Shown here piece after piece: positions 35,623-47,321 of a DNA stretch of 64,000 bases. The DNA lies in the NCBI RefSeq assembly GCF_003205495.1, contig NZ_QJRX01000002.1:248001-312000 (forward strand). Direction: 5' to 3'. The notes under the pieces were generated by a model. The model ran no database searches. It was not told where the DNA came from and was given only the letters and a program-made list of their open reading frames with translations. Position 1 is the first letter of the stretch, and every line of letters starts with the position of its first letter. The DNA is from Aquipseudomonas alcaligenes. GTDB lineage: Bacteria > Pseudomonadota > Gammaproteobacteria > Pseudomonadales > Pseudomonadaceae. The translations under genes were made by a program, and so were the position numbers.

Positions 35623-36150
35623 TCAGCCGAACTGCGCGGCGCGCGCCCGGTACATCCCGGCAAAGCCATGTACCACCACCATCACCCCGGCCCAGATCGC
35701 CGCGAGCAGCAGCAGGGTCGGCCACAGCCCCAGCGGCAGGCCGACGCCGGCCAGCTTGGCGCCGCCCAGGTAGGACAGCGGCCCGGCGATGGCCCCGAGC
35801 AGGCTGCCCAGCCACCAGGGGCGGGCGCTCCAGGCCAGGCTGTGGTTGAGGCTGGTGGCGAACAGCGCCCACAGCAGGGCCAGCCAGGGCGGCAGCAGGC
35901 GGCTGTCGCCGGCGAAGTCGAACACGCCGAGGTTGAGCAGGAAGGTATCCAGCGCACTGCCGAACAGCGCTACGCTGGCCACCAGGCGGCCTTCGGCGCG
36001 CCAGCTGGCGACCCAGACGAAGTGTGCGGCCAGGCAGGCCAGGGCCAGGGCCAGCAGCCAGGGGTGGGTGGCGCCGAACACACAGGCGAACCAGCCGGCC
36101 TGGAACAGCAGGGCATTGAGGATCAGCGAGCGGGGCGCGGTCAGCTGCAT
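35623..36150 (-). CDS. DUF2878 inner-membrane protein
   Basis: 175 residues with about five or six hydrophobic helices (NALLFQAGWFACVFGA, LLALALACLAAHFVWVASW and so on), a conserved DUF2878 layout. It is the last gene of the photolyase/CFA operon, 58 bp after the CFA-like gene. In other proteobacteria DUF2878 genes also travel with DUF1365 and CFA genes, which suggests a membrane step in the same lipid pathway; the step itself is unknown. Confidence 0.85.
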   Translation of the reverse strand: MQLTAPRSLILNALLFQAGWFACVFGATHPWLLALALACLAAHFVWVASWRAEGRLVASVALFGSALDTFLLNLGVFDFAGDSRLLPPWLALLWALFATSLNHSLAWSARPWWLGSLLGAIAGPLSYLGGAKLAGVGLPLGLWPTLLLLAAIWAGVMVVVHGFAGMYRARAAQFG

Positions 36151-36208: not shown

Positions 36209-37483
36209 TCAGGCGCCGAAATTTCCCAGCAGCGGCGCCGGGCGCGAGCCTTCCTTGGCCAGCAGCAACTGGGCGGTGCCGATGGTGCGTTCGAGGAAGC
36301 CGCCCTCGCAGTAGCACAGGTAGAACTCCCACAGCCGATAGAAGTAGTCGTCGTAGCCGAGCTGCTCCAGGCGGTGGCGGGCGCGGCGCAGGTTGTCGTG
36401 CCACAGGCGCAGGGTGCGCGCGTAGTGCAGGCCAAAGTCCTCCATGTGGTGCAGGTTGAGGTCGGTGTCGCGGCTGACGATCTCCAGCATCTTGTTCACC
36501 GAGGGCAGGGCGCCGCCGGGGAAGATGTAGCGCTGGATGAAGTCCACCGACTTGCGCGCCTGCTCGTAGCGCTGGTCGCGGATGGTGATGGCCTGCAGCA
36601 GCATCAGCCCGTCGTCCTTGAGCAGGCGCGCGCACTGCTTGAAGTAGGTGGGCAGGAAGCGATGGCCGACCGCCTCGATCATCTCGATCGACACCAGCTT
36701 GTCGTACTGGCCCTGCAGGTCGCGGTAATCCTCCAGCAGCAGGGTGATGCGCTCCTGCAGGCCCAGCTGCTCGATGCGCTGGCGGGTGTAGTCGTACTGT
36801 TCGCGCGACAGGGTGGTGGTGGTCACCCGGCAGCCGTAGTGGCTGGCCGCATAGATGGCCATACTGCCCCAGCCGGTGCCGATCTCCAGCAGGTGGTCGT
36901 CGGCCTGGAGGTCGAGCTTCTGGCAGATGCGTTCTAGCTTGTTCAGCTGGGCCTGTTCCAGGCTGTCCTGCTCGCTGCCGAACATGGCCGCCGAGTACAT
37001 CATGGTGGGGTCGAGGAACTGCTCGAACAGCGCGTTGCCGAGGTCGTAGTGGGCGGCGATGTTCTTGCGCGAGCCCTTGCGGGTGTTGCGGTTGAGCCAG
37101 TGCAGGCCCTGCAGCAGCGGCCGGCCGAGCCTGGCCAGGCCGCGCTCCATGCCGTCCAGCACGTCGAGGTTGCTGACGAACACGCGGATCACCGCGGTCA
37201 GGTCCGGGGTGGTCCAGTAACCGTGGATGTAGGCCTCGCCGGCGCCGATCGAGCCGTTGCCGGCGACCATGGCCCAGACGGCGGCGTCCTGCACGTGGAT
37301 TTCCGCGTGCAGCGGTGCGCCGGCCTGGCCGAAGGTCTGCCGTTCGCCGTCCTCGACGATTGCCAGCTGGCCGTGGCGCAGCTGGCCGAGTTGGCGCAGC
37401 ACGGCGCGCTTGAGCAGGCCGGCGCCGACGCCATTGCCGGCGCGCACGCTGGTTTTCGCGGAAGTAAGGTCAGGACTCTTCAT
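36209..37483 (-). CDS. CFA-synthase-like SAM-dependent fatty-acid methyltransferase
   Basis: 424 residues. A CFA-type N-terminal domain leads to the SAM site: HYDLGN at 145-150, YSAAMF, and the methyltransferase motif LEIGTGWGS at 199-207. A late FYLCYCEGGF segment corresponds to the catalytic-Cys region of cyclopropane synthases. Enzymes of this family methylate or cyclopropanate double bonds of membrane phospholipid acyl chains. In this operon setting (DUF1365, amine oxidase, SDR) the relatives include the 11-methyl/furan fatty-acid enzymes of Rhodobacter, so the product may not be a simple cyclopropane. It overlaps the DUF1365 gene by 14 bp. Confidence 0.92.
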   Translation of the reverse strand: MKSPDLTSAKTSVRAGNGVGAGLLKRAVLRQLGQLRHGQLAIVEDGERQTFGQAGAPLHAEIHVQDAAVWAMVAGNGSIGAGEAYIHGYWTTPDLTAVIRVFVSNLDVLDGMERGLARLGRPLLQGLHWLNRNTRKGSRKNIAAHYDLGNALFEQFLDPTMMYSAAMFGSEQDSLEQAQLNKLERICQKLDLQADDHLLEIGTGWGSMAIYAASHYGCRVTTTTLSREQYDYTRQRIEQLGLQERITLLLEDYRDLQGQYDKLVSIEMIEAVGHRFLPTYFKQCARLLKDDGLMLLQAITIRDQRYEQARKSVDFIQRYIFPGGALPSVNKMLEIVSRDTDLNLHHMEDFGLHYARTLRLWHDNLRRARHRLEQLGYDDYFYRLWEFYLCYCEGGFLERTIGTAQLLLAKEGSRPAPLLGNFGA

Positions 37484-38261
37484 GGCGGGGCTCCAGATGG
37501 GCGGTGCGGTATTCACCGTCCGCGGCACGATGGGAAAAGATCGGGGTGCGTTTGAGCAGCAGGCGCAGGGCCTGCCAGTAGATGCCGAGCAGGGTCTTGG
37601 CGGTCATCCAGGGGAAGGCCAGCAGGTGGCGGTGCAGGCTGGCGCGGCTGAGCGGGGTGCGGCTCAGGCCGAGGCCGGCTTCGAACAGCTTGTCCGCGCC
37701 CTGCCAGTCCTCCATGTGGATGTGCAGGCGTTCGCCGGGGGGCGAGTAGCGCATGCGGTATTCCAGTTCGCGCGGCAGGAAGGGCGAGACATGGAAGCTC
37801 TTGGCCACACGGTGGCGCGACTCGCCCTCGGCGTTGGCCGGCAGCACGTAGTGGTAGCGCTCGCGCCAGGGCGTGTTGCTGACCTCGCAGAGGATCGCCT
37901 GCAGGCGCTCCTGCTCGTCGAAGCAGTAGAAGAAGCTGGCCGGGTTGAAGGCCAGGCCCCAGCTGCGCGGCTGGCTCAGCAGGCAGATGCGCCCGCGCGG
38001 CGCCTGGCCCAGGGCCTCGCCGACGCGCTGGCGCACGGCGTCGGCCAGGCGCATGCCGCGGCCGGTGAGCTGCGGCAGGAAATCGCTCTCGCGGAAGGCG
38101 AAGGGCGCCCAGCGCGAGCGCCCGGCCAGCGGCGACAGGGCGAGTACGGCATCCTGCTCGGCCAGGTCGAGGTAGAGCATGCCCATGCGGTAGCGGAAGG
38201 CATGGCCGCGCGGCAGATGCCGGCGGTGCCCGACCCAGCCCTGGTACAGGGCGCTGTTCAC
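37470..38261 (-). CDS. DUF1365 family protein
   Basis: 263 residues from a GTG at 38261 that shares 4 bp (GTGA) with the stop of the FAD-oxidase gene, so translation is coupled. Family landmarks include YQGWVGHRRHLPRGHAFRY at the start, then SWGLAFNPASFFYCFD and KSFHVSPFLP. No catalytic mechanism is known. It consistently occurs with an FAD amine oxidase-like protein and a CFA-type methyltransferase, implying a joint lipid-modification pathway. Confidence 0.9.
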   Translation of the reverse strand: MNSALYQGWVGHRRHLPRGHAFRYRMGMLYLDLAEQDAVLALSPLAGRSRWAPFAFRESDFLPQLTGRGMRLADAVRQRVGEALGQAPRGRICLLSQPRSWGLAFNPASFFYCFDEQERLQAILCEVSNTPWRERYHYVLPANAEGESRHRVAKSFHVSPFLPRELEYRMRYSPPGERLHIHMEDWQGADKLFEAGLGLSRTPLSRASLHRHLLAFPWMTAKTLLGIYWQALRLLLKRTPIFSHRAADGEYRTAHLEPRHEES

Positions 38262-39505
38262 AGTTCTTCCCCGAAGGCGCGGGCCACGCGCAGCGCGCTG
38301 GTCACGCCGTCCTCGTGGAAGCCGTTGGCCCAGTAGGCGCCGCAGTAGTAGGTGTGCTGCACGCCGCACAGCTCTTCCCAGCGCGCCTGCGCGGCGATGC
38401 CGGCCAGGCTGTACTGCGGGTGGGCGTAGCGGTAGCGGCCGAGAATCTTGGACGGGTCGATGGCCGCGGTCTGGTTGAGGCTGACGCAGAAGGTGGTGTC
38501 GCTGCGGATGCCCTGCAGGATGTTCATGTTGTAGGTCACCGCCGCCGGCTGGTCGACCGGACCGCCGAGGCGGTAGTTCCAGCTGGCCCAGGCCAGGCGG
38601 CGCTGCGGCAGCAGGCGTGTGTCGGTGTGCAGCACCACGTCGTTGTCGGCATAGCGCAGGGCGCCGAGGATCTGCTGCTCGGCCTCGCTGGGCTGCGCCA
38701 GCAGGGCCAGGGCCTGGTCGCTGTGGCAGGCGAAGATCACCTTGTCGAAGCGCTCGACGCCGGCCGGGCTGTGCAGCAGCACGCCGGCGTCGTCGCGCTC
38801 CACGCGCTGCACCGGGCAGTTCAGGCGGATGCGTTCGGCGAAGCTGGCGGTCAGCGGCGCCACGTAGCTGCGCGAACCGCCGCAGATCACCCGCCATTGC
38901 GGGCGATCGCTGACCGACAGCAGGCCGTGGTTCTTGAAGAAGCGCACGAAGAACTGCAGGGGAAAGGCCAGCATGTCGGCCAGCGACATGGACCAGATCG
39001 CCGCGCCCATCGGCACTATGTAGTGATCGATGAAGCGCTGGCCGTAGCCGCGCGAGTCCAGGTAGGCGCCGAGGGTCATGTCGGCCGGGATGTGCTGTTC
39101 GGCGAGGTCGAACAGCGCCTCGCGGTTGAAGCGCAGGATGTCGCGCAGCATGCCCCAGAAGGCCGGGCGCAGCAGGTTGCTGCGCTGGGCGAAGAGGCTG
39201 TTGAGGTTGTTGCCGTTGTACTCGCTGCCGCTGATCGGGTCGTGCACCGAGAAGCTCATCTCGGTGGGCTGCGAGGCCACGCCGAGCTGGTCCAGCAGGC
39301 GGATGAAGTTGGGGTAGGTCCAGTCGTTGAACACGATGAAGCCGGTGTCGATGGCAAAACGCTGGCCTTGCACCTCGACATCCACCGTGTGGGTGTGACC
39401 GCCGATCCAGTCGCCGGCCTCGAACAGGCTGATCTCGTGCTTGCGGTTGAGCAGGTAGGCGCTGGTCAGGCCGGCGATGCCGCTGCCGACGATGGCGATT
39501 TTCAT
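38258..39505 (-). CDS. FAD/NAD(P)-dependent amine oxidase-like oxidoreductase
   Basis: 415 residues. The FAD-binding Rossmann motif VGSGIAGLTSAYLL is at 6-19 with FEAGDWIGGHTHT (about 31-43). There is a flavin-domain C-terminus (YWANGFHEDGVTSALRVA). It belongs to the amine-oxidase/phytoene-desaturase superfamily but to the subgroup found in CFA-containing operons, so fatty-acyl desaturation or oxidation is more likely than amine oxidation (inference). It overlaps both neighbours by 4 bp. Confidence 0.92.
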   Translation of the reverse strand: MKIAIVGSGIAGLTSAYLLNRKHEISLFEAGDWIGGHTHTVDVEVQGQRFAIDTGFIVFNDWTYPNFIRLLDQLGVASQPTEMSFSVHDPISGSEYNGNNLNSLFAQRSNLLRPAFWGMLRDILRFNREALFDLAEQHIPADMTLGAYLDSRGYGQRFIDHYIVPMGAAIWSMSLADMLAFPLQFFVRFFKNHGLLSVSDRPQWRVICGGSRSYVAPLTASFAERIRLNCPVQRVERDDAGVLLHSPAGVERFDKVIFACHSDQALALLAQPSEAEQQILGALRYADNDVVLHTDTRLLPQRRLAWASWNYRLGGPVDQPAAVTYNMNILQGIRSDTTFCVSLNQTAAIDPSKILGRYRYAHPQYSLAGIAAQARWEELCGVQHTYYCGAYWANGFHEDGVTSALRVARAFGEEL

Positions 39506-40260
39506 GAGTGCGATTCCGTGCGGGAGAGTCGTTTGCCGATGGCCAGCTGCAGGCCCTTGGGCAGGTGCGCGAGCAGCAGCAGGATGGCGATGAAGGGGCC
39601 GGGGAAGGCGATTTCGTAAGGCCGCCGCTGCAGTTTCGTGGCGATGTGCCGCGCGGCCTTCTCCACTGGCCAGCGCATGGGCATGGGGAAGTCGTTCTTC
39701 TGTGTCAGCGGGGTGTCGACGAAGCCGGGGCTGACCAGGGTGACGGCGATGCCTTCGGCGGCCAGGTCGACGCGCAGCGCCTCGAACAGGTAGCGCATGG
39801 CGGCCTTGGACGCGCCATAGGCTTCGGCGCGCGGCAGCGGCAGGAAGGTCACCGAGCTGGACACCGCCACCAGGTGCGGGTGCTCGCCGCGGCGCAGCAG
39901 CGGCAGGGCGGCTTCCACGCAAAGGGCGGCGGAGAACAGGTTGGCGCGCATCACCCGCTCGACCATGGCCGCCTCGAAGGCGCTGACCTCCACGTACTCG
40001 CAGGTGCCGGCGTTGAGGATGGCCTGGTCCAGCGCGCCCCAGTGCTCGCTGATGCGCCGGCCAATGGCACGCACCTGCTCGGGGTCGGTCAGGTCGCCGG
40101 GCGCCTGCAGCACCTGGCCGGGATAGCGCTCGGCCAGGACCTGCAGGGCACTGGCATTGCGCGCGCTGAGGGCCAGGCGATGCCCCTGTTGCAGCAGGAC
40201 TTCGGCCAGGGCGGCGCCGATGCCACTGCTGGCGCCGGTCAACCAGATGCGTCTGCTCAT
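39502..40260 (-). CDS. Short-chain dehydrogenase/reductase
   Basis: 252 residues of classical SDR: cofactor motif TGASSGIG near residues 8-15, NAG (ILNAGTCEY), catalytic Ser in VAVSSSVTF, and YGASK for the Tyr/Lys pair. A C-terminal hydrophobic stretch (IAILLLLAHLPKG) could associate with the membrane. It is coupled to both neighbours by ATGA overlaps. The substrate is unknown; its operon suggests a lipid or oxidised-lipid carbonyl. Confidence 0.92.
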   Translation of the reverse strand: MSRRIWLTGASSGIGAALAEVLLQQGHRLALSARNASALQVLAERYPGQVLQAPGDLTDPEQVRAIGRRISEHWGALDQAILNAGTCEYVEVSAFEAAMVERVMRANLFSAALCVEAALPLLRRGEHPHLVAVSSSVTFLPLPRAEAYGASKAAMRYLFEALRVDLAAEGIAVTLVSPGFVDTPLTQKNDFPMPMRWPVEKAARHIATKLQRRPYEIAFPGPFIAILLLLAHLPKGLQLAIGKRLSRTESHS

Positions 40261-40679
40261 GCCAACCTCCTTTTCAGCCAGGCGATGACGCCGCCCATCA
40301 GCGGCAGGTGTTCGTAGAGCATGGCACCGGCGTCGAAATAGTCGCGGTGCTGGTAGACCTTGTCCCACCACAGCAGGTGCGAGCAGCCGTCCACGCTGAT
40401 GCGCGCGCCGCCACGCAGGCGCGGGTGGCGGAAGTGCATGGTCCAGCGCAGGTAGCCTTCGCCGTCGACGACCTGGTCGAAGCCGTGGAAGTCGAACTCG
40501 AGGCGGCCGACATTGGCATACAGCTCGGCGAAGTAGCGCTGCAGCGCCGGCAGTCCGCGCACCTCGTGCAGCGGGTCGCGGAACAGCACGTCGTCGCTGT
40601 ACAGCTGGCCCAGGCGCTGCAGGTTGCTGGCGTCGAGCGCGGCGAACTCGGTGGCGAAGCGGCGCAGGAACTCAGACAT
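40257..40679 (-). CDS. NTF2/SnoaL-like protein
   Basis: 140 residues with the cone-shaped NTF2 fold pattern: an N-terminal helix (FLRRFATEFAALD), YSDDVLFRDPLHEVRG, LRWTMHFRHPRL and DGCSHLLWWDKVYQHRDYFD. Family members are small isomerases or binding proteins, and the role here is unknown. The gene overlaps the SDR by 4 bp and the photolyase by 8 bp, so it is fixed within the operon. Confidence 0.85.
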   Translation of the reverse strand: MSEFLRRFATEFAALDASNLQRLGQLYSDDVLFRDPLHEVRGLPALQRYFAELYANVGRLEFDFHGFDQVVDGEGYLRWTMHFRHPRLRGGARISVDGCSHLLWWDKVYQHRDYFDAGAMLYEHLPLMGGVIAWLKRRLA

Positions 40680-42114
40680 CGGCCACCTCCAGCGCCGGCA
40701 GGTTCTTGAAGGCCTGCAGGGCGCGCTCGCGCGAGCGCGCCAGGTCGACGATCGGGCGCGGGTAGTCGGCGACGCCGAACAAGCCGCCCATTGCCGACGG
40801 ATCATGGATGTCGCGCTTGTTCAGCCCGGCCAGCTCCGGCACCCAGGTGCGGATGAAACGGCCATCCGGGTCGAATTTCTGCGACTGGCTGATTGGGTTG
40901 AAGATGCGGAAGTAGGGCGCCGCGTCGGTGCCGGTGGAGGCGCTCCACTGCCAGCCGCCGTTGTTGGCGGCCAGGTCGCCGTCGATCAGATGCTGCATGA
41001 AGAAGCGTTCGCCCAGGCGCCAGTCGAGCAGCAGGTTCTTGGTGAAGAACATCGCCACCACCATGCGCAGGCGGTTGTGCATCCAGCCGGTGGCCAGCAG
41101 CTGGCGCATGGCGGCATCGACGATGGGAATGCCGGTGCGGCCCTGCTGCCAGGCTTCCAGGTCCCCGGGCGCATCGCGCCATGGCACGGCCTCGGTCTCC
41201 GGGCGGAAGGCGCGGTGCCGCGATACCCGTGGGTAGCCGACCAGGATGTGCTTGTAGAACTCGCGCCAGAGCAGTTCGTTGATCCAGCTGACGACGCCCG
41301 GGTTGCCGCTGTCGAACTCGCCCTGGTTGCTGCGCAGGGCGGCATGCAGGCACTGGCGCGGCGAGATCACGCCGGCGGCGAGGTAGGGTGACAGCTGGCT
41401 GGTGCCGTCGATGGCGGGGAAGTCGCGCTGCTCCTGGTACCAGGCCATGCGCTGCTCGGCGAAGTCGGCCAGGCGCCGCAGCGCAGCATCTTCGCCGGCT
41501 GGCCAGAACTCGCGCAGGGCCGGCGTAGGCGTGGCGAAGCCGTCCACTGCCGGCGGCAGCGGATCACCGGCAATCGCCAGGGGCGCCTGCGCCTGCGGCA
41601 CCGCCACCAGGGCCGGCAGGGCGCTGTGCAGCAGGCGGTAACAGGCCTTGCGGAACTGGCTGTAGACCTGGAAATAGTTGCCGGCCTGGGTCAGCACGCT
41701 GCCGGGGCGGAAGAACAGCTGGTCGAGGCACGCCCGGAAGGCCACGCCCAGGGGCTGCAGCGCCCTGGCCACGGCCTGGTCGCGGCGGCTCTCGTGGATG
41801 CCGTATTCCTCGTTGACCCAGACGGTGCCGACATCGTGGTTGCGGCACAGGGCGGCGAGCACCTCGGGGGCGTCGCGCCAGTGTGGTGCCTGGCGCACCA
41901 GCAGCGGCACGTTGAGGCGGGCCAGTTGCTGCTGCAGCTCGGCCAGGTTGCGCAGCCAGAAGTCCACCTTGGCCGGTGCATCATCATGCTCGCGCCACTG
42001 TTCGGGGCTGATCAGGTAGACGGCCAGGGTCGGGCCGGCGGCCATGGCGGCGGCGAGCGCGCTGTTGTCCTGTACGCGCAGGTCGCTGCGCAGCCAGATC
42101 AATTGATGTTTCAC
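40672..42114 (-). CDS. phrB: Deoxyribodipyrimidine photolyase
   Basis: Repairs cyclobutane pyrimidine dimers using blue light. 480 residues of the CPD class I type. An N-terminal antenna-binding domain (LIWLRSDLRVQDNSALAAA) is followed by a C-terminal FAD domain with GTSQLSPYLAAGVISPRQ, WINELLWREFYKH, TGWMHNRLRMVVAMF and NNGGWQWSASTGTDAAPYFRIFNP. Start is GTG 42114, sharing GTGA with the stop of the MerR gene. Cotranscription with a LitR-like regulator suggests light-responsive expression. Confidence 0.96.
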   Translation of the reverse strand: MKHQLIWLRSDLRVQDNSALAAAMAAGPTLAVYLISPEQWREHDDAPAKVDFWLRNLAELQQQLARLNVPLLVRQAPHWRDAPEVLAALCRNHDVGTVWVNEEYGIHESRRDQAVARALQPLGVAFRACLDQLFFRPGSVLTQAGNYFQVYSQFRKACYRLLHSALPALVAVPQAQAPLAIAGDPLPPAVDGFATPTPALREFWPAGEDAALRRLADFAEQRMAWYQEQRDFPAIDGTSQLSPYLAAGVISPRQCLHAALRSNQGEFDSGNPGVVSWINELLWREFYKHILVGYPRVSRHRAFRPETEAVPWRDAPGDLEAWQQGRTGIPIVDAAMRQLLATGWMHNRLRMVVAMFFTKNLLLDWRLGERFFMQHLIDGDLAANNGGWQWSASTGTDAAPYFRIFNPISQSQKFDPDGRFIRTWVPELAGLNKRDIHDPSAMGGLFGVADYPRPIVDLARSRERALQAFKNLPALEVADV

Positions 42115-43028
42115 AACAACTCCTGCTGCTTCAGCAGCTGTTCCGCGCTCAGCGGGTCGTCGGCCAGGTGCAGGCCGGGCAGTGTGCGCACCTCGTCGGC
42201 ATGGATGCGCGCCGCCGGGCCGGCCAGCAGCAGCGGCGCCGGGAAATGACTGTTGAGGCGCGGCAGCTCGCGTTGCAGCAGCTGCGCGTCGAGGCTGTGG
42301 CTGGAGTACAGCAGCAGGGCACGCGGGGCGATGCGTTCGCAGGCCAGGGCCAGCTCGCCCAGCGGCATGGGCCAGTCGAACACCTCCACCGGGCAGCCGG
42401 CGCTGCTGGCCAGCCAGGCGCACAGCCACAGCTCGGGCTCCAGCGGCAGGCTGGAGAGGTTGACCAGCAGCAGCGGCGCACCGCCCTGCTGGCGATTGCT
42501 GTGGTAGAGGCGGGCGCCGAGCTTGCTGCGCAGCCAGGAATGGAAGAACACCCGCTCCAGCTGGGCGCCGAACGGTGCGCCCTGCCAGCGCTGCTGCAGG
42601 TCGGCCAGCAGCGGCAGCAGCAGTTGCTGGCACAGGGTGCGCGGCGGGTAGAGGGCCAGGGCGCGGTTGAACTGTTCGTCCAGCGCGCGCTCGGCCTGCT
42701 GCTCGATGCTCTGCAGCAGCTCCTGGCGCAGGGCGTCCCAGGGGCTGGCGCCGCTGTGTGGCGCCAGCGGGCGCTGTTCCAGCAGCTCCTTGACCTGGCC
42801 GACCGCGACGCCGCGCGCCAGCCAGGTGAGGATGGCCTGGATGCGCACCACGTGATCCTGCGAGTACAGGCGGTGGCCCTTGGGTGTGCGGTGCGGCACG
42901 ATCAGCCCGTAGCGGCGCTCCCAGGCGCGCAGGGTGACCGGGTTGACCCCGGTGCTGCGCGCCACTTCGCGGATCGGCAGGTAGCCCTGGGCGAGGGCGG
43001 CCTGGTAGTCGTCGCCGGCCGTGCTCAT
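42111..43028 (-). CDS. MerR-family regulator of the LitR/CarH type lacking B12-binding motifs
   Basis: 305 residues. An N-terminal MerR winged helix (about 16-85: PIREVARSTGVNPVTLRAWERRYGL, TPKGHRLYS) is followed by a LitR/CarH-like C-terminal region. Two signatures of true cobalamin photoreceptors are not seen: the Trp...Glu-His pair of the helical bundle (here ...LERVFFHSW) and DxHxxG of the Rossmann part. It therefore looks like a class II LitR protein, which in P. putida is thought to act with a separate LOV photoreceptor. It probably represses its own operon through the TGTACA pairs at 43997-44069. Confidence 0.88.
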   Translation of the reverse strand: MSTAGDDYQAALAQGYLPIREVARSTGVNPVTLRAWERRYGLIVPHRTPKGHRLYSQDHVVRIQAILTWLARGVAVGQVKELLEQRPLAPHSGASPWDALRQELLQSIEQQAERALDEQFNRALALYPPRTLCQQLLLPLLADLQQRWQGAPFGAQLERVFFHSWLRSKLGARLYHSNRQQGGAPLLLVNLSSLPLEPELWLCAWLASSAGCPVEVFDWPMPLGELALACERIAPRALLLYSSHSLDAQLLQRELPRLNSHFPAPLLLAGPAARIHADEVRTLPGLHLADDPLSAEQLLKQQELL

Positions 43029-43975
43029 AGGGCGTTGCGCAGGCTGAGGTTTTCTGGGTGCGGCTGCAGGTAGGCCTGGCGCGCCACGTAGCGGTCCGGA
43101 TGACGGCGGAAATGGTGCTTGAGCAGGGTCAGCGGTACCACTAGGGGAATGATGCCGCTGCGGTACTGGGTGATCAGCTGCTGCATCTCTTCCTTCTCCT
43201 CGCTGCTCAGGGCCTGCTTGAGGTAGCCGGAGAGGTGCTGCAGCACGTTGCTGTGGGTGCCGCGAGTGGCGCACTTCTTCAGCGCCGCCATCAGCTGGCT
43301 GAAGTAGCGCGGGCCGAACTCCTGCGGGTCGTGCCTGCCCAGGTCGGCGAGCAGGCGGCCGAGGGCCTTGTACTGCAGCGGATTATTGGCCATCAGCTGG
43401 TACTTGTAGCGGGCGTGGAAGTCGAGGATCGCCTTGCGCGTCAGGCCGGCGTGCAGCAGGCGCTGCCACTCGGCGTAGGCGAACACGCGGGTGAGGAAGT
43501 TCTCGCGCAGCACCGGGTCGTTGAGCCGACCGTCTTCTTCCACCGGCAGGTCCGGGCGCAGGCGGGTGAAGGCGGCGGCGAAGATGCCGCTGGCGCCGCC
43601 GTCGGCCGGGTAGCCGTTGTCCTGGTAGACCTTGACCCGCTCCATGCCGCAGGAAGGCGACTTGTGCATGAAGATGTAGCCGCTGATGTCGTCCAGCTCG
43701 CCGGCCATGCGCGTTCCGTAGTCGTGCAGGGCCTGGGTCACGTCGCGCTCGCGGTTGACCGTGCCGAGGGCGCGCGGCGCCTGCGGGTCGCCGACCAGGC
43801 GGATGGGCTCGCGCGGGGTGCCCAGGCCGATGGCTACTTCCGGGCACAGCGGGACGAAGTCGAAATGCTCGGCCAGCACCCGGCTGCACAGGCGCGATTC
43901 CTTGTGGCCGCCGTTGTAGCGTACCTCGGCCCCCAGCAGGCAGGCGCTGATGCCCAGCTTGAGCTTGCTCGTCAT
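43025..43975 (-). CDS. DUF523 plus DUF1722 protein (YbgA-type)
   Basis: 316 residues: an N-terminal DUF523 domain (LGISACLLGAEVRYNGGHK, CPEVAIGLGTPREPIRL, KSPSCGMERVKVY) and a C-terminal DUF1722 domain (FLTRVFAYAEWQRL, FHARYKYQLMANNP). The conserved Cys residues of the DUF523 part suggest metal binding. YbgA homologues are often next to photolyase genes. It is the first gene of the operon and overlaps the MerR gene by 4 bp. Confidence 0.92.
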   Translation of the reverse strand: MTSKLKLGISACLLGAEVRYNGGHKESRLCSRVLAEHFDFVPLCPEVAIGLGTPREPIRLVGDPQAPRALGTVNRERDVTQALHDYGTRMAGELDDISGYIFMHKSPSCGMERVKVYQDNGYPADGGASGIFAAAFTRLRPDLPVEEDGRLNDPVLRENFLTRVFAYAEWQRLLHAGLTRKAILDFHARYKYQLMANNPLQYKALGRLLADLGRHDPQEFGPRYFSQLMAALKKCATRGTHSNVLQHLSGYLKQALSSEEKEEMQQLITQYRSGIIPLVVPLTLLKHHFRRHPDRYVARQAYLQPHPENLSLRNAL

Positions 43976-43996
43976 GGCTCCTCCCGTTCGTAAACT

Positions 43997-44069
43997 TGTA
44001 CAGGTTTTGCTGTTTGTACAGATATTCCTATCTTAGGAATTAACTTGTACAAGTCAAATTATTTGTACA
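43997..44069 (-). promoter_or_regulatory. Operon promoter overlaid by two TGTACA-N12-TGTACA operators
   Basis: Read on the minus strand, TTGACT (complement of 44052-44057), 16 bp, TAAGAT (complement of 44030-44035) is a strong sigma-70 promoter. Four perfect TGTACA hexamers lie at 43997-44002, 44015-44020, 44046-44051 and 44064-44069, forming two pairs each spaced by exactly 12 bp. One pair flanks the -35; the other lies just downstream of the start site. A further palindrome, ATTCCTA-TCT-TAGGAAT (44024-44040), covers the -10. The layout indicates repression, most simply by the LitR-like protein encoded in the operon. Confidence 0.85.
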
Positions 44070-44141
44070 GTTTTCGTATCGAGGTGTTTCGCCAGGCGTG
44101 CAGGGGCCGCCGCCCTGCTGGCGGTGCCTGGACGGCGGGGG

Positions 44142-44438
44142 TCAGGGGTAGTCGAGCAGCAGGCGGATCTGCGGCAGATGGGCGGCGACCCAGGCGCGGT
44201 CGATCGGTCCCCAGTCGGCGATGCGGTAATGGCCGGCGTTGTTGCGCTCGCCGTCGTGCTGCACGAAGTCGCAGCGGATATCCAGCTCGGCCAGCGCCGC
44301 CAGGGTGTCCTGGGCGGTGCGCCGTGGCATGCCGGTGGCGGCCATCAGCGCCGGCACGCTGGTGGCCGTGCCGCTGTCGATCAGCCAGGCGACGTAGAGG
44401 CGGCGGTAGAAGCTGGTGCGGGTCTTGCTGACTTCCAT
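44142..44438 (-). CDS. Winged helix-turn-helix domain protein
   Basis: 98 residues from ATG 44438. TSVPALMAATGMPRRTAQDTLAALAELDI is a clear helix-turn-helix, followed by a wing (CDFVQHDGERNNAGHYRI). A small predicted DNA-binding protein of unknown target, found beside valS in Pseudomonas. It is downstream of valS on the same strand with a hairpin between. Confidence 0.85.
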   Translation of the reverse strand: MEVSKTRTSFYRRLYVAWLIDSGTATSVPALMAATGMPRRTAQDTLAALAELDIRCDFVQHDGERNNAGHYRIADWGPIDRAWVAAHLPQIRLLLDYP

Positions 44439-44457
44439 GCGGGCTCCTGCAGACAGC

Positions 44458-44483
44458 ACAAGGCCCGCGATGGCGGGCCTTGT
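44458..44483 (-). terminator. Hairpin after valS (weak terminator candidate)
   Basis: ACAAGGCCCGC, loop GATG, GCGGGCCTTGT: a perfect 11-bp stem 7 bp downstream of the valS stop. It lacks a long T-tract on the minus strand, so read-through into the winged-helix gene is likely. Confidence 0.5.
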
Positions 44484-44489
44484 CGGGGG

Positions 44490-47321
44490 TTACAGCTTGG
44501 CGATCTTCTCGCGCTGCTCGACCAGCTTGGCCAGTGCCTGTTCGGCCTCTGCCAGCTTGGCGCGCTCCTTGTCGAGCACCTCGGCTGGGGCCTTGGCGAC
44601 GAAGCCCTCGTTGGCCAGCTTGCCGCCGACCCGCTGGACTTCGCCCTGCAGGCGCTGGATTTCCTTGTCCAGGCGCGCCAGTTCGGCGTCCTTGTCGATC
44701 AGGCCGGCCATCGGCACCAGCACCTGCATCTCGCCGACCAGGGCGGTGGCGGACATCGGCGCTTCCTCGGAGGCTTCCAGCACGCGCACCGACTCCAGCT
44801 TGGCCAGCTTGCTCAGCAGCGGCTCGAAGTCGGCCAGGCGGCGCAGGTCTTCGGCGCCCGCGTTCTGCACGATGATGTCGATGCGCTTGGCCATGGAGAT
44901 CTTCATCTCGCCACGGATCTGCCGCACGCCGAGCATCAGCTGCTTGACCCACTCGATGTCGCCTTCGGCGGCCGCGTCGATGCGGCTCTCGTTGGCCACC
45001 GGCCAGGCCTGCAGCATGATGGTGGCGCCGTCCTTGCCGGCCTGGGCCTTGATCCGCTGCCAGATTTCTTCGGTGATGAAGGGCATGAAGGGGTGGGCCA
45101 GGCGCAGGATCACTTCCAGCACACGCACCAGGGTGCGGCGGGTGCCGCGCTGGCGCTCGATCGGCGCGTTCTCGTCCCACAGCACCGGCTTGACCAGCTC
45201 CAGGTACCAGGCGCAGTACTCGTCCCAGATGAGCTCGTACAAGGCTTGTGCCGCCATGTCGAAACGGAAGGCATCGAGGTGGCGGGTCACGTCCTGCTCG
45301 CAGCGCTGCAGGGCGGAGATGATCCAGCGGTCCACCGGCGACAGGTCGACCGGCTCGTCGTTGACACCGGTGTCCTGGCCATCGGTGTTCTCGATAACGA
45401 AGTTGGCGGCATTCCACAGCTTGTTGCAGAAGTTGCGGTAGCCCTCGACGCGGCCCATGTCGAACTTGATGTCGCGGCCGGTGGAGGCCAGCGCCAGGTT
45501 GGTGAAGCGCAGGGCGTCGGTGCCGTAAGCGGCGATGCCCTCGGGGAACTCGGCGCGGGTCTGCTTGGCGATCTTCTCGGCCAGCTTGGGCTGCATCATG
45601 CCGCTGGTGCGCTTGGCCACCAGGGCTTCGAGGTCGATGCCGTCGACGATGTCCAGCGGGTCGAGCACGTTGCCCTTGGACTTGGACATCTTTTGGCCCT
45701 GGCCGTCACGCACCAGGCCGTGCACGTACACGGTCTTGAACGGGATCTGCCCGGTCAGGTGGGTGGACAGCATGATCATCCGGGCGACCCAGAAGAAGAT
45801 GATGTCGAAGCCGGTGACCAGTACGTCGGTCGGGTGGAAGGTCTTGAGGAAATCGGTCTGCTGTGGCCAGCCGAGGGTGGAGAAGGTCCACAGGCCGGAG
45901 CTGAACCAGGTGTCCAGCACGTCTTCGTCCTGGCGCAGGGCGATGTCACCGAGGTTGTGCTTGGCGCGCACTTCCGCCTCGTCGCGGCCGACATAGACGT
46001 TGCCGGCCTCGTCGTACCAGGCCGGGATGCGGTGGCCCCACCAGAGCTGGCGGCTGATGCACCAGTCCTGGATGTCGCGCATCCAGCTGAAGTACATGTT
46101 CTCGTACTGCTTGGGCACGAACTGGATCTCGCCGCTCTCGACCACGGCGATGGCTTTTTCCGCCAGCGGCTTGGTGGAGACGTACCACTGGTCGGTCAGC
46201 CACGGCTCGATCACGGTGCCGGAACGGTCGCCCTTCGGCACTTTCAGGGCGTGGTCTTCGATCTTCTCCAGCAGGCCGGCGGCTTCGAAGGCAGCAACGA
46301 TCTGCTTGCGCGCGACGAAGCGGTCGAGGCCGGCGTATTCGGCCGGCAGGCTGCCGTCGATCTCGGCATTGACGCTGCCGTCGATGTTGAACACCTGGGC
46401 CTTGGCGAGCACCTGGGCGTCCTTGTCGAAGATGTTGATCAGCGGCAGGTTGTGGCGCTTGCCGACTTCATAGTCGTTGAAGTCGTGGGCCGGGGTGATC
46501 TTCACGCAGCCGGTGCCGAACTCGGGGTCGCAGTAGTCGTCGGCGATGATCGGGATGCGCCGGCCCACCAGCGGCAGTTCGATGTAGCTGCCGATCAGCG
46601 CCTTGTAGCGCTCGTCTTCCGGGTGCACGGCCACGGCGGAGTCGCCGAGCATGGTTTCCGGGCGGGTGGTGGCGACGATCAGGTAGTCCAGGCCCTCGGC
46701 GGTTTTCTTGCCGTCGGCCAGCGGGTAGCGCAGGTTCCACAGGTGGCCCTTCTCGTCGTGGTTTTCCACTTCGAGGTCGGAGATGGCGGTGTGGAACTTG
46801 GTGTCCCAGTTGACCAGGCGCTTGCCGCGGTAGATCAGGCCGTCCTGGTGCAGGCGCACGAAGGCTTCCTTCACCGCTTCGGAGAGGCCCTCGTCCATGG
46901 TGAAGCGCTCGCGCGACCAGTCCACCGAGCTGCCCAGGCGACGGATCTGCCGGGTGATGGTGCCGCCGGACTGTTCCTTCCACTCCCAGACCTTCTCCAG
47001 GAACTTCTCGCGGCCCAGGTCGTGGCGACCGATGCCATCGGCGGCCAGCTGGCGCTCGACCACCATCTGGGTGGCGATGCCCGCGTGGTCGGTGCCCGGC
47101 TGCCACAGGGTGTTGCGGCCCTGCATGCGGCGGAAGCGGATCAGGCAGTCCATGATCGAGTTGTTGAAGCCGTGGCCCATGTGCAGGCTGCCGGTGACGT
47201 TCGGCGGCGGGATCATGATGGTGTAGGGCTCGCCGGAACCTTGCGGGGCGAAATAGTTGTTCTGCTCCCAGGTCTGGTACCAGGAAGTTTCGATGGCGTG
47301 GGGCTGGTAGGTCTTGTCCAT
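44490..47321 (-). CDS. valS: Valyl-tRNA synthetase
   Basis: Charges tRNA-Val and edits misactivated threonine. 943 residues of class I synthetase: HMGH at 47-50 (HIGH motif, in [13 protein letters not shown]), the CP1 editing domain (about 190-350), KMSKS (in [10 protein letters not shown], about 550), an anticodon-binding domain, and a C-terminal coiled coil ([20 protein letters not shown]). The open frame extends 21 codons upstream, but ATG 47321 ([11 protein letters not shown]) is the family start. Confidence 0.98.

Follow-up and report, generated by a model that had tools for sequence, protein, structure and literature searches.

The tandem operators upstream of a minus-strand operon in the window (the whole 64 kb stretch of Aquipseudomonas alcaligenes DNA that was analysed) very probably belong to a light-inducible promoter. 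This promoter would control an operon that contains rudS, litR, phrB and a gene for a CMAS-family methyltransferase, and it would be the counterpart of P6650, a promoter of Pseudomonas mendocina NBRC 14162 (PMC9758184). The architecture and the mechanism are already in print for the P. mendocina counterpart and are essentially known (PMC9758184). The present analysis assigns the strain to the LOV-LitR blue-light circuit already in print, corrects the identity of the likelier repressor, and provides a short list of further candidate operators. The sites, the promoter geometry, the operon content, the conservation, and the genes for the protein partners are described here from the genomes. Binding, repression, and release by light were demonstrated by others in P. 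mendocina (PMC9758184), and by analogy the same behavior is expected in the window's strain.

Four TGTACA hexamers are found at window positions 43997, 44015, 44046, and 44064, and these make up four of the nine TGTACA hexamers in the 64 kb. They form two pairs with spacers of exactly 12 bp, assigned to the minus strand. Site 1 (44046..44069) contains the -35 hexamer and Site 2 (43997..44020) lies in the 5' leader, and each is placed like the site of the same name in P6650. An earlier sequence-only reading of this DNA had reported the two exact N12 pairs, and its coordinates agree with those found here. Nothing equal arises in shuffled DNA. Exact pairs were absent from 100 shuffles of the window and from 20,000 shuffles of the local 166 bp, and a local shuffle never contained more than two hexamers, versus the four observed. 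With up to two mismatches allowed there are four pairs in the window, a number reached in none of 100 shuffles (mean 0.34, largest 3). Both sites are perfect matches to the class II LitR consensus T(G/A)TACA-N12-TGTA(C/T)A, as found in P6650. This consensus was defined with P. putida PplR1 (per PMC9758184), and it is shared with the PplR1-PplR3/PpSB-LOV system of P. putida KT2440 (Sumi et al. 2020, via PMC9758184). The sequence-only reading had given it as the site of class II LitR proteins of P. putida; it fits, and the counterpart pairs both fall within one PmlR2 footprint on P6650 (PMC9758184). The comparison supports the view that the two sites are operators of the class II LitR type at a sigma-70 promoter. 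The sequence-only reading had also suggested cooperative binding from the presence of two operators; this may apply, but the published footprint is a single broad region (PMC9758184).

The tandem site is conserved upstream of rudS in most of the related loci. A rudS-type gene is found in 114 of 119 genomes of the genus. The loci compared were the best 80 of 129 named ones plus 29 from other genomes of the genus (30 were fetched, one of which was the window's own). A tandem site was counted when its spacers were 12 or 13 and at least 19 of the 24 hexamer positions matched. Such a site precedes the orthologous rudS gene in 97 of the 109 related loci, versus 1 of 1090 shuffles, and at this threshold the arrangement is absent in the other 12. 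Spacers of 12 together with a score of at least 21/24 are found in 66 of 81 promoters (the window and the best 80 of 129), while the highest score in 405 shuffles was 17; the same combination is present in 26 of 30 loci from the other genomes, own locus included. These locus counts are not independent, since both sets were chosen by similarity and have species in common. Six of the 97 tandem promoters were exact repeats and were dropped, leaving 91 distinct promoters. Both spacers are 12 in 84 of these, and the offset between the sites is 50 bp in 68, 51 in 12, 49 in 10, and 45 in one. A consensus tandem site is present somewhere in 200 of 298 sampled genomes of the genus, and the control columns with the reversed pattern are zero. 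In the closest relative examined, G118 (locus L088), the RudS protein is 86% identical. Site 1 there has an N13 spacer, and its second hexamer is not preceded by TTGACT; Site 2 is retained, as is a -10 hexamer that reads TATGAT. Perfect spacing is not indispensable, given the N13 spacer of G118 and the 12 loci that lack the tandem arrangement.

The promoter between and under the operators has the geometry of P6650 but an uncommon -10 hexamer. It reads TTGACT-N16-TAAGAT on the minus strand (44057-44030), and matches 9 of 12 consensus positions; a search of 42000-46000 gave no other sigma-70-like site (shuffle mean 0.2). The -35 hexamer TTGACT (minus strand, 44057-44052) is found in 82 of the 91 distinct related promoters. 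The -10 hexamer is TAAGAT (minus strand, 44035-44030). P6650 has TTGACT-N16-TATGAT before its first gene (PMC9758184), so that the -35 hexamer and the spacer are shared and the -10 hexamer differs. When the first TANNNT between the operators is taken, TATGAT occurs in 75 of the 91 and TAAGAT in two. The sequence-only reading had described a strong promoter with these hexamers; the promoter exists, on the minus strand, but the word strong overstates it, the usual -10 being TATGAT. The start point of P6650 was mapped 48 bp before the ATG (PMC9758184). The ATG of the next minus-strand gene in the window is at 43975, and the analogous distance would put +1 at 44023 on the minus strand, 7 nt downstream of the -10 hexamer. 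With this predicted start point Site 1 extends from -46 to -23 and Site 2 from +4 to +27. Site 1 thus lies on the -35 and Site 2 between the start point and the ATG, as do the two TGTACA-N12-TGTACA sites of P6650 (PMC9758184).

A palindrome over the -10 hexamer is probably due to chance. The sequence-only reading had suggested that ATTCCTA-TCT-TAGGAAT (44024..44040) may belong to a second regulator. In favor of this, it is a perfect 7+3+7 inverted repeat with its center 1 bp off the midpoint of both operators. However, when those 25 bp are shuffled, an arm of at least 7 arises in 222 of 5000 cases. The palindrome occurs in none of the 91 distinct related promoters with the tandem site, and in all of them the best inverted-repeat arm between the operators is 5 or shorter. 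An operator for a second regulator is highly improbable on these grounds, and the proposal was rejected.

The function of this type of promoter has been established in P. mendocina. There PmlR2, a class II LitR, represses in the dark, and light-activated PmSB-LOV releases the repression (PMC9758184). The PmlR2 footprint on P6650 is one broad region, from +32 to -45 and from +37 to -54 on the two strands, and binding to Site 2 is lost when both of its hexamers are replaced (PMC9758184). Run-off transcription from P6650 is repressed by PmlR2, and the repression is relieved by illuminated PmSB-LOV (PMC9758184). The gel shift, in which the LitR-LOV complex is still on the DNA in the light, conflicts with the BIAcore result, and the authors favor the latter (PMC9758184). 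The nine genes from PME6650 to PME6610 act as one light-induced polycistron, with induction of phrB and ufaM by about 25-33 fold (PMC9758184). The light-induced genes of P. putida KT2440 include those for PplR1, PhrB, UfaM, FolE, and CryB (via PMC9758184).

The operon downstream of the promoter in the window is also a run of nine genes, all on the minus strand. The first gene (43025..43975) was identified as RudS-type by domain search, since its product has a 2-thiouracil desulfurase (TudS) domain fused to DUF1722. It is followed by a class II LitR/CarH-type MerR regulator at the place of pmlR1 (42111..43028) and by phrB, encoding a deoxyribodipyrimidine photolyase (40672..42114; 540 bits, cut-off 506); neighbors among these three genes overlap by four bases each. 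The remaining genes encode a SnoaL_2-domain protein (40257..40679), a short-chain dehydrogenase (39502..40260), an FAD-dependent oxidoreductase of the amine oxidase type by Pfam (38258..39505), a DUF1365 protein (37470..38261), a CMAS-family methyltransferase at the place of ufaM, the furan fatty acid synthase gene (36209..37483), and a DUF2878 protein, the last of the run (35623..36150). In the P. mendocina cluster PmlR1, PhrB, the dehydrogenase, the FAD oxidoreductase, and UfaM are found at matching places (PMC9758184), a likeness of gene content and position. 4-Thiouridine is removed from tRNA by RudS enzymes, as defined in PMC11417400, and these have been noted to occur in operons that respond to light and also contain PhrB and LitR (PMC11417400). 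By its domain content the first gene probably encodes a light-controlled tRNA 4-thiouridine eraser of the RudS type. PME6650 may be the rudS counterpart; this match is one of position, because PMC9758184 calls PME6650 only hypothetical. The operon probably also encodes furan fatty acid enzymes. Near-UV light crosslinks 4-thiouridine in tRNA, and therefore RudS and photolyase under one blue-light promoter would make a sensible protective programme, one that can be tested. Control of RudS and photolyase by one promoter has already been suggested as a form of protection (PMC11417400).

The LitR protein of the operon belongs to class II and does not appear to sense B12. The 43028-42111 product has a MerR HTH and a B12-binding_2 match at the Pfam cut-off (23 bits), and with Pfam at E 0.001 no B12-binding domain beyond B12-binding_2 was found. 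It shares with the class I CarH/LitR proteins of Thermus and Myxococcus the MerR HTH and a remnant of the four-helix B12-binding_2 domain, and it aligns with CarH chains over residues 13-243 (E about 5e-18). As with class I proteins, repression that is relieved by light would be expected. These similarities would fit an adenosyl-B12 photoreceptor like CarH that needs no LOV protein. The cobalamin-binding residues are not kept, however: R and L stand at the positions aligned with H142 and H177 of CarH. A B12-binding domain with an axial His, which would mark a class I protein, was not found in the local product, and its score against the CarH equivalog is 77.6 against a cut-off of 400. B12 sensing by this protein was rejected, and it is the least probable of the readings considered. 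In class II systems, unlike class I CarH, light is sensed by a separate LOV protein (PMC9758184). Class II LitR is called B12-dependent in PMC11417400, while PMC9758184 argues the opposite; the sequence of the local protein agrees with the latter.

A second LitR gene and a gene for a short LOV protein are found on another contig, C10. The second LitR (C10:158494-159327) is PmlR2-like and is 34% identical to the local protein over 295 residues, with a closely similar HTH. Its gene is beside folM and folE, as is pmlR2 in P. mendocina (PMC9758184). Its Pfam matches are to MerR families only, with no B12-binding_2 at E 0.001, whereas B12-binding_2 is reported for PmlR2 (PMC9758184). A third MerR match, at C15:248026, is weak (32% over 91 residues). 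The LOV protein has 152 residues, the motif QDCRFLQ with Cys53, a PAS_9 match, and no effector domain; its top matches among solved structures are sensory box proteins (3sw1, E 3.5e-60). Motif searches of the NCRFLQ type for a LOV protein gave no match in the genome, because the motif is QDCRFLQ, and the protein was found by the PAS_9 family search. There are 58 PAS_9 matches, among them at least one LOV protein with QDCRFLQ. This separate light sensor is an addition to the account given in the sequence-only reading. About 12 kb separate the LOV gene from the one for the PmlR2-like protein, while in P. mendocina the two genes are adjacent (PMC9758184). Compared with the three pplR and two LOV genes of P. 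putida (PMC9758184), two LitR genes, the one weak third MerR match, and at least one LOV gene are found here.

These two genes on C10 mean that the local LitR need not be the repressor. The sequence-only reading had taken the 43028-42111 product as the candidate binding protein; it is indeed a class II LitR, by position the PmlR1-type paralog, but the C10 protein is the likelier binder, since PmlR2 is the one shown to act on P6650 (PMC9758184). The local product could still repress alone, in an autoregulatory loop with the C10 paralog inactive at this promoter. The litR gene sits within the operon that it would control, and its HTH resembles that of the paralog. The consensus is that of PplR1, to which PmlR1 is the nearest P. 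mendocina protein (45% identity, versus 34% for PmlR2; PMC9758184), and the local protein is a possible binder for this reason. On the other hand, it was PmlR2 that gave the footprint on the P. mendocina promoter. Transcription of pmlR2 and of the LOV gene is constitutive there, that of pmlR1 rises 6-10 fold in the light, and in P. putida the three pplR genes act together (PMC9758184). A repressor made mainly in the light is by itself a poor account of repression in the dark. Repression by the local product alone is unlikely; it would be one version of the same switch, and its odds overlap those of the favored explanation. By analogy with P. mendocina, the C10 protein is the likelier dark repressor in this strain and the local protein a possible partner; judged by sequence, either paralog could bind.

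The circuit proposed for the strain follows the P. mendocina model. Site 1 and Site 2 would be occupied in darkness by a class II LitR (the C10 PmlR2-like protein, the local PmlR1-like protein, or both). RNA polymerase would be blocked, as Site 1 covers the -35 and Site 2 lies just past the predicted start point. Blue light would produce a Cys53-FMN adduct in the short LOV protein, and in its light state the LOV protein would bind LitR and take it off the DNA. Release of LitR would turn on the operon, with removal of 4-thiouridine from tRNA, photolyase activity, and production of the probable furan fatty acid enzymes.

Further candidate operators are found elsewhere in the genome, some with spacers other than 12. 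A genome scan for the same spaced pair, proposed in the sequence-only reading, was run: TRTACA-N12-TGTAYA was matched three times in the 4.01 Mb genome, twice by the sites described here, and TGTACA-N11-13-TGTAYA occurs at six (one for the reversed pattern). A TGTACA-N11-TGTACA pair at C9:7473-7495 (L119 1974-1996) precedes a DUF6482 gene and a CryB-like photolyase-related gene. The probable counterpart of this pair of genes in P. mendocina is PME7070-cryB, a light-induced unit. An N13 pair at C10:157579 is upstream of folM, and TGTACA-N12-GGTATA is also present 47 bp before the listed folM start; the same form was reported 95 bp before P. mendocina folM (PMC9758184). The cryB and folM sites fit a light switch because light induces both cryB and the fol genes of P. 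mendocina, with only about a 2.5-fold effect on folM (PMC9758184). Two more TGTACA-N11-TGTACA pairs are on C10. The one at C10:35662-35684 (L118 2163-2185) is between an FAD oxidoreductase gene and an epimerase-ferrochelatase gene pair, and the one at C10:159484-159506 (L084 14985-15007) immediately precedes an acyl-CoA dehydrogenase gene, which is the neighbor of the PmlR2-like gene on its downstream side. In many relatives (for example G012 and G017) only a few kb separate the FAD oxidoreductase gene of C10:35662 from rudS; in the present genome they are found on separate contigs.

Conservation of these additional sites among relatives, examined at the FAD oxidoreductase and cryB genes, is partial and speaks to some extent against a wider regulon. 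Loci from 30 of 40 genomes, own included, were compared at the FAD oxidoreductase gene; 6 of these have a full pair within 500 bp, with one N11 and five N12 spacers, and 20 of the 24 loci without a full pair keep TGTACA at -52 to -55. The loci with the most similar proteins (L139, 91%; L140, 89%) have none. A cryB gene was found in 15 of 40 genomes, and a full pair is present within 700 bp in 6 of the 15 loci (own included; two N11, four N12); L124, whose protein is the most similar (81%), has no full pair. A wider regulon is only a lead, since the extra sites are kept in part of the loci and not in the relatives closest by protein. It is possible, if somewhat doubtful, that one LOV/class II LitR circuit reads N11, N12, and N13 operators and controls five units: the rudS-phrB operon, DUF6482-cryB, folM-folE with the FolB/FolX-type gene that follows them, the divergent FAD-oxidoreductase/epimerase-ferrochelatase pair, and the acyl-CoA dehydrogenase gene. 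Such a circuit would go beyond the N12 spacing in print, and the blue-light switch would then take in genes for heme and fatty acids.

Two other leads from the genome scans were set aside. A scan allowing two mismatches gave 138 places, versus 62 for the reversed control, and was too noisy to define a regulon. TATACA-N12-TGTATA at C15:49070-49093 (L085 2071-2094) is probably a chance match, as neither half is a perfect TGTACA; inspected by eye, its neighbors look like a gene for an AraC-type regulator and one for a chemotaxis receptor. A further double operator in tandem was seen at a second place in three other genomes (L120 1968-2042, L121 2036-2110, and L122 2030-2104). It precedes a SnoaL_2 gene followed by a short-chain dehydrogenase gene, with a PAS/LOV-type gene next to it in two of these genomes.
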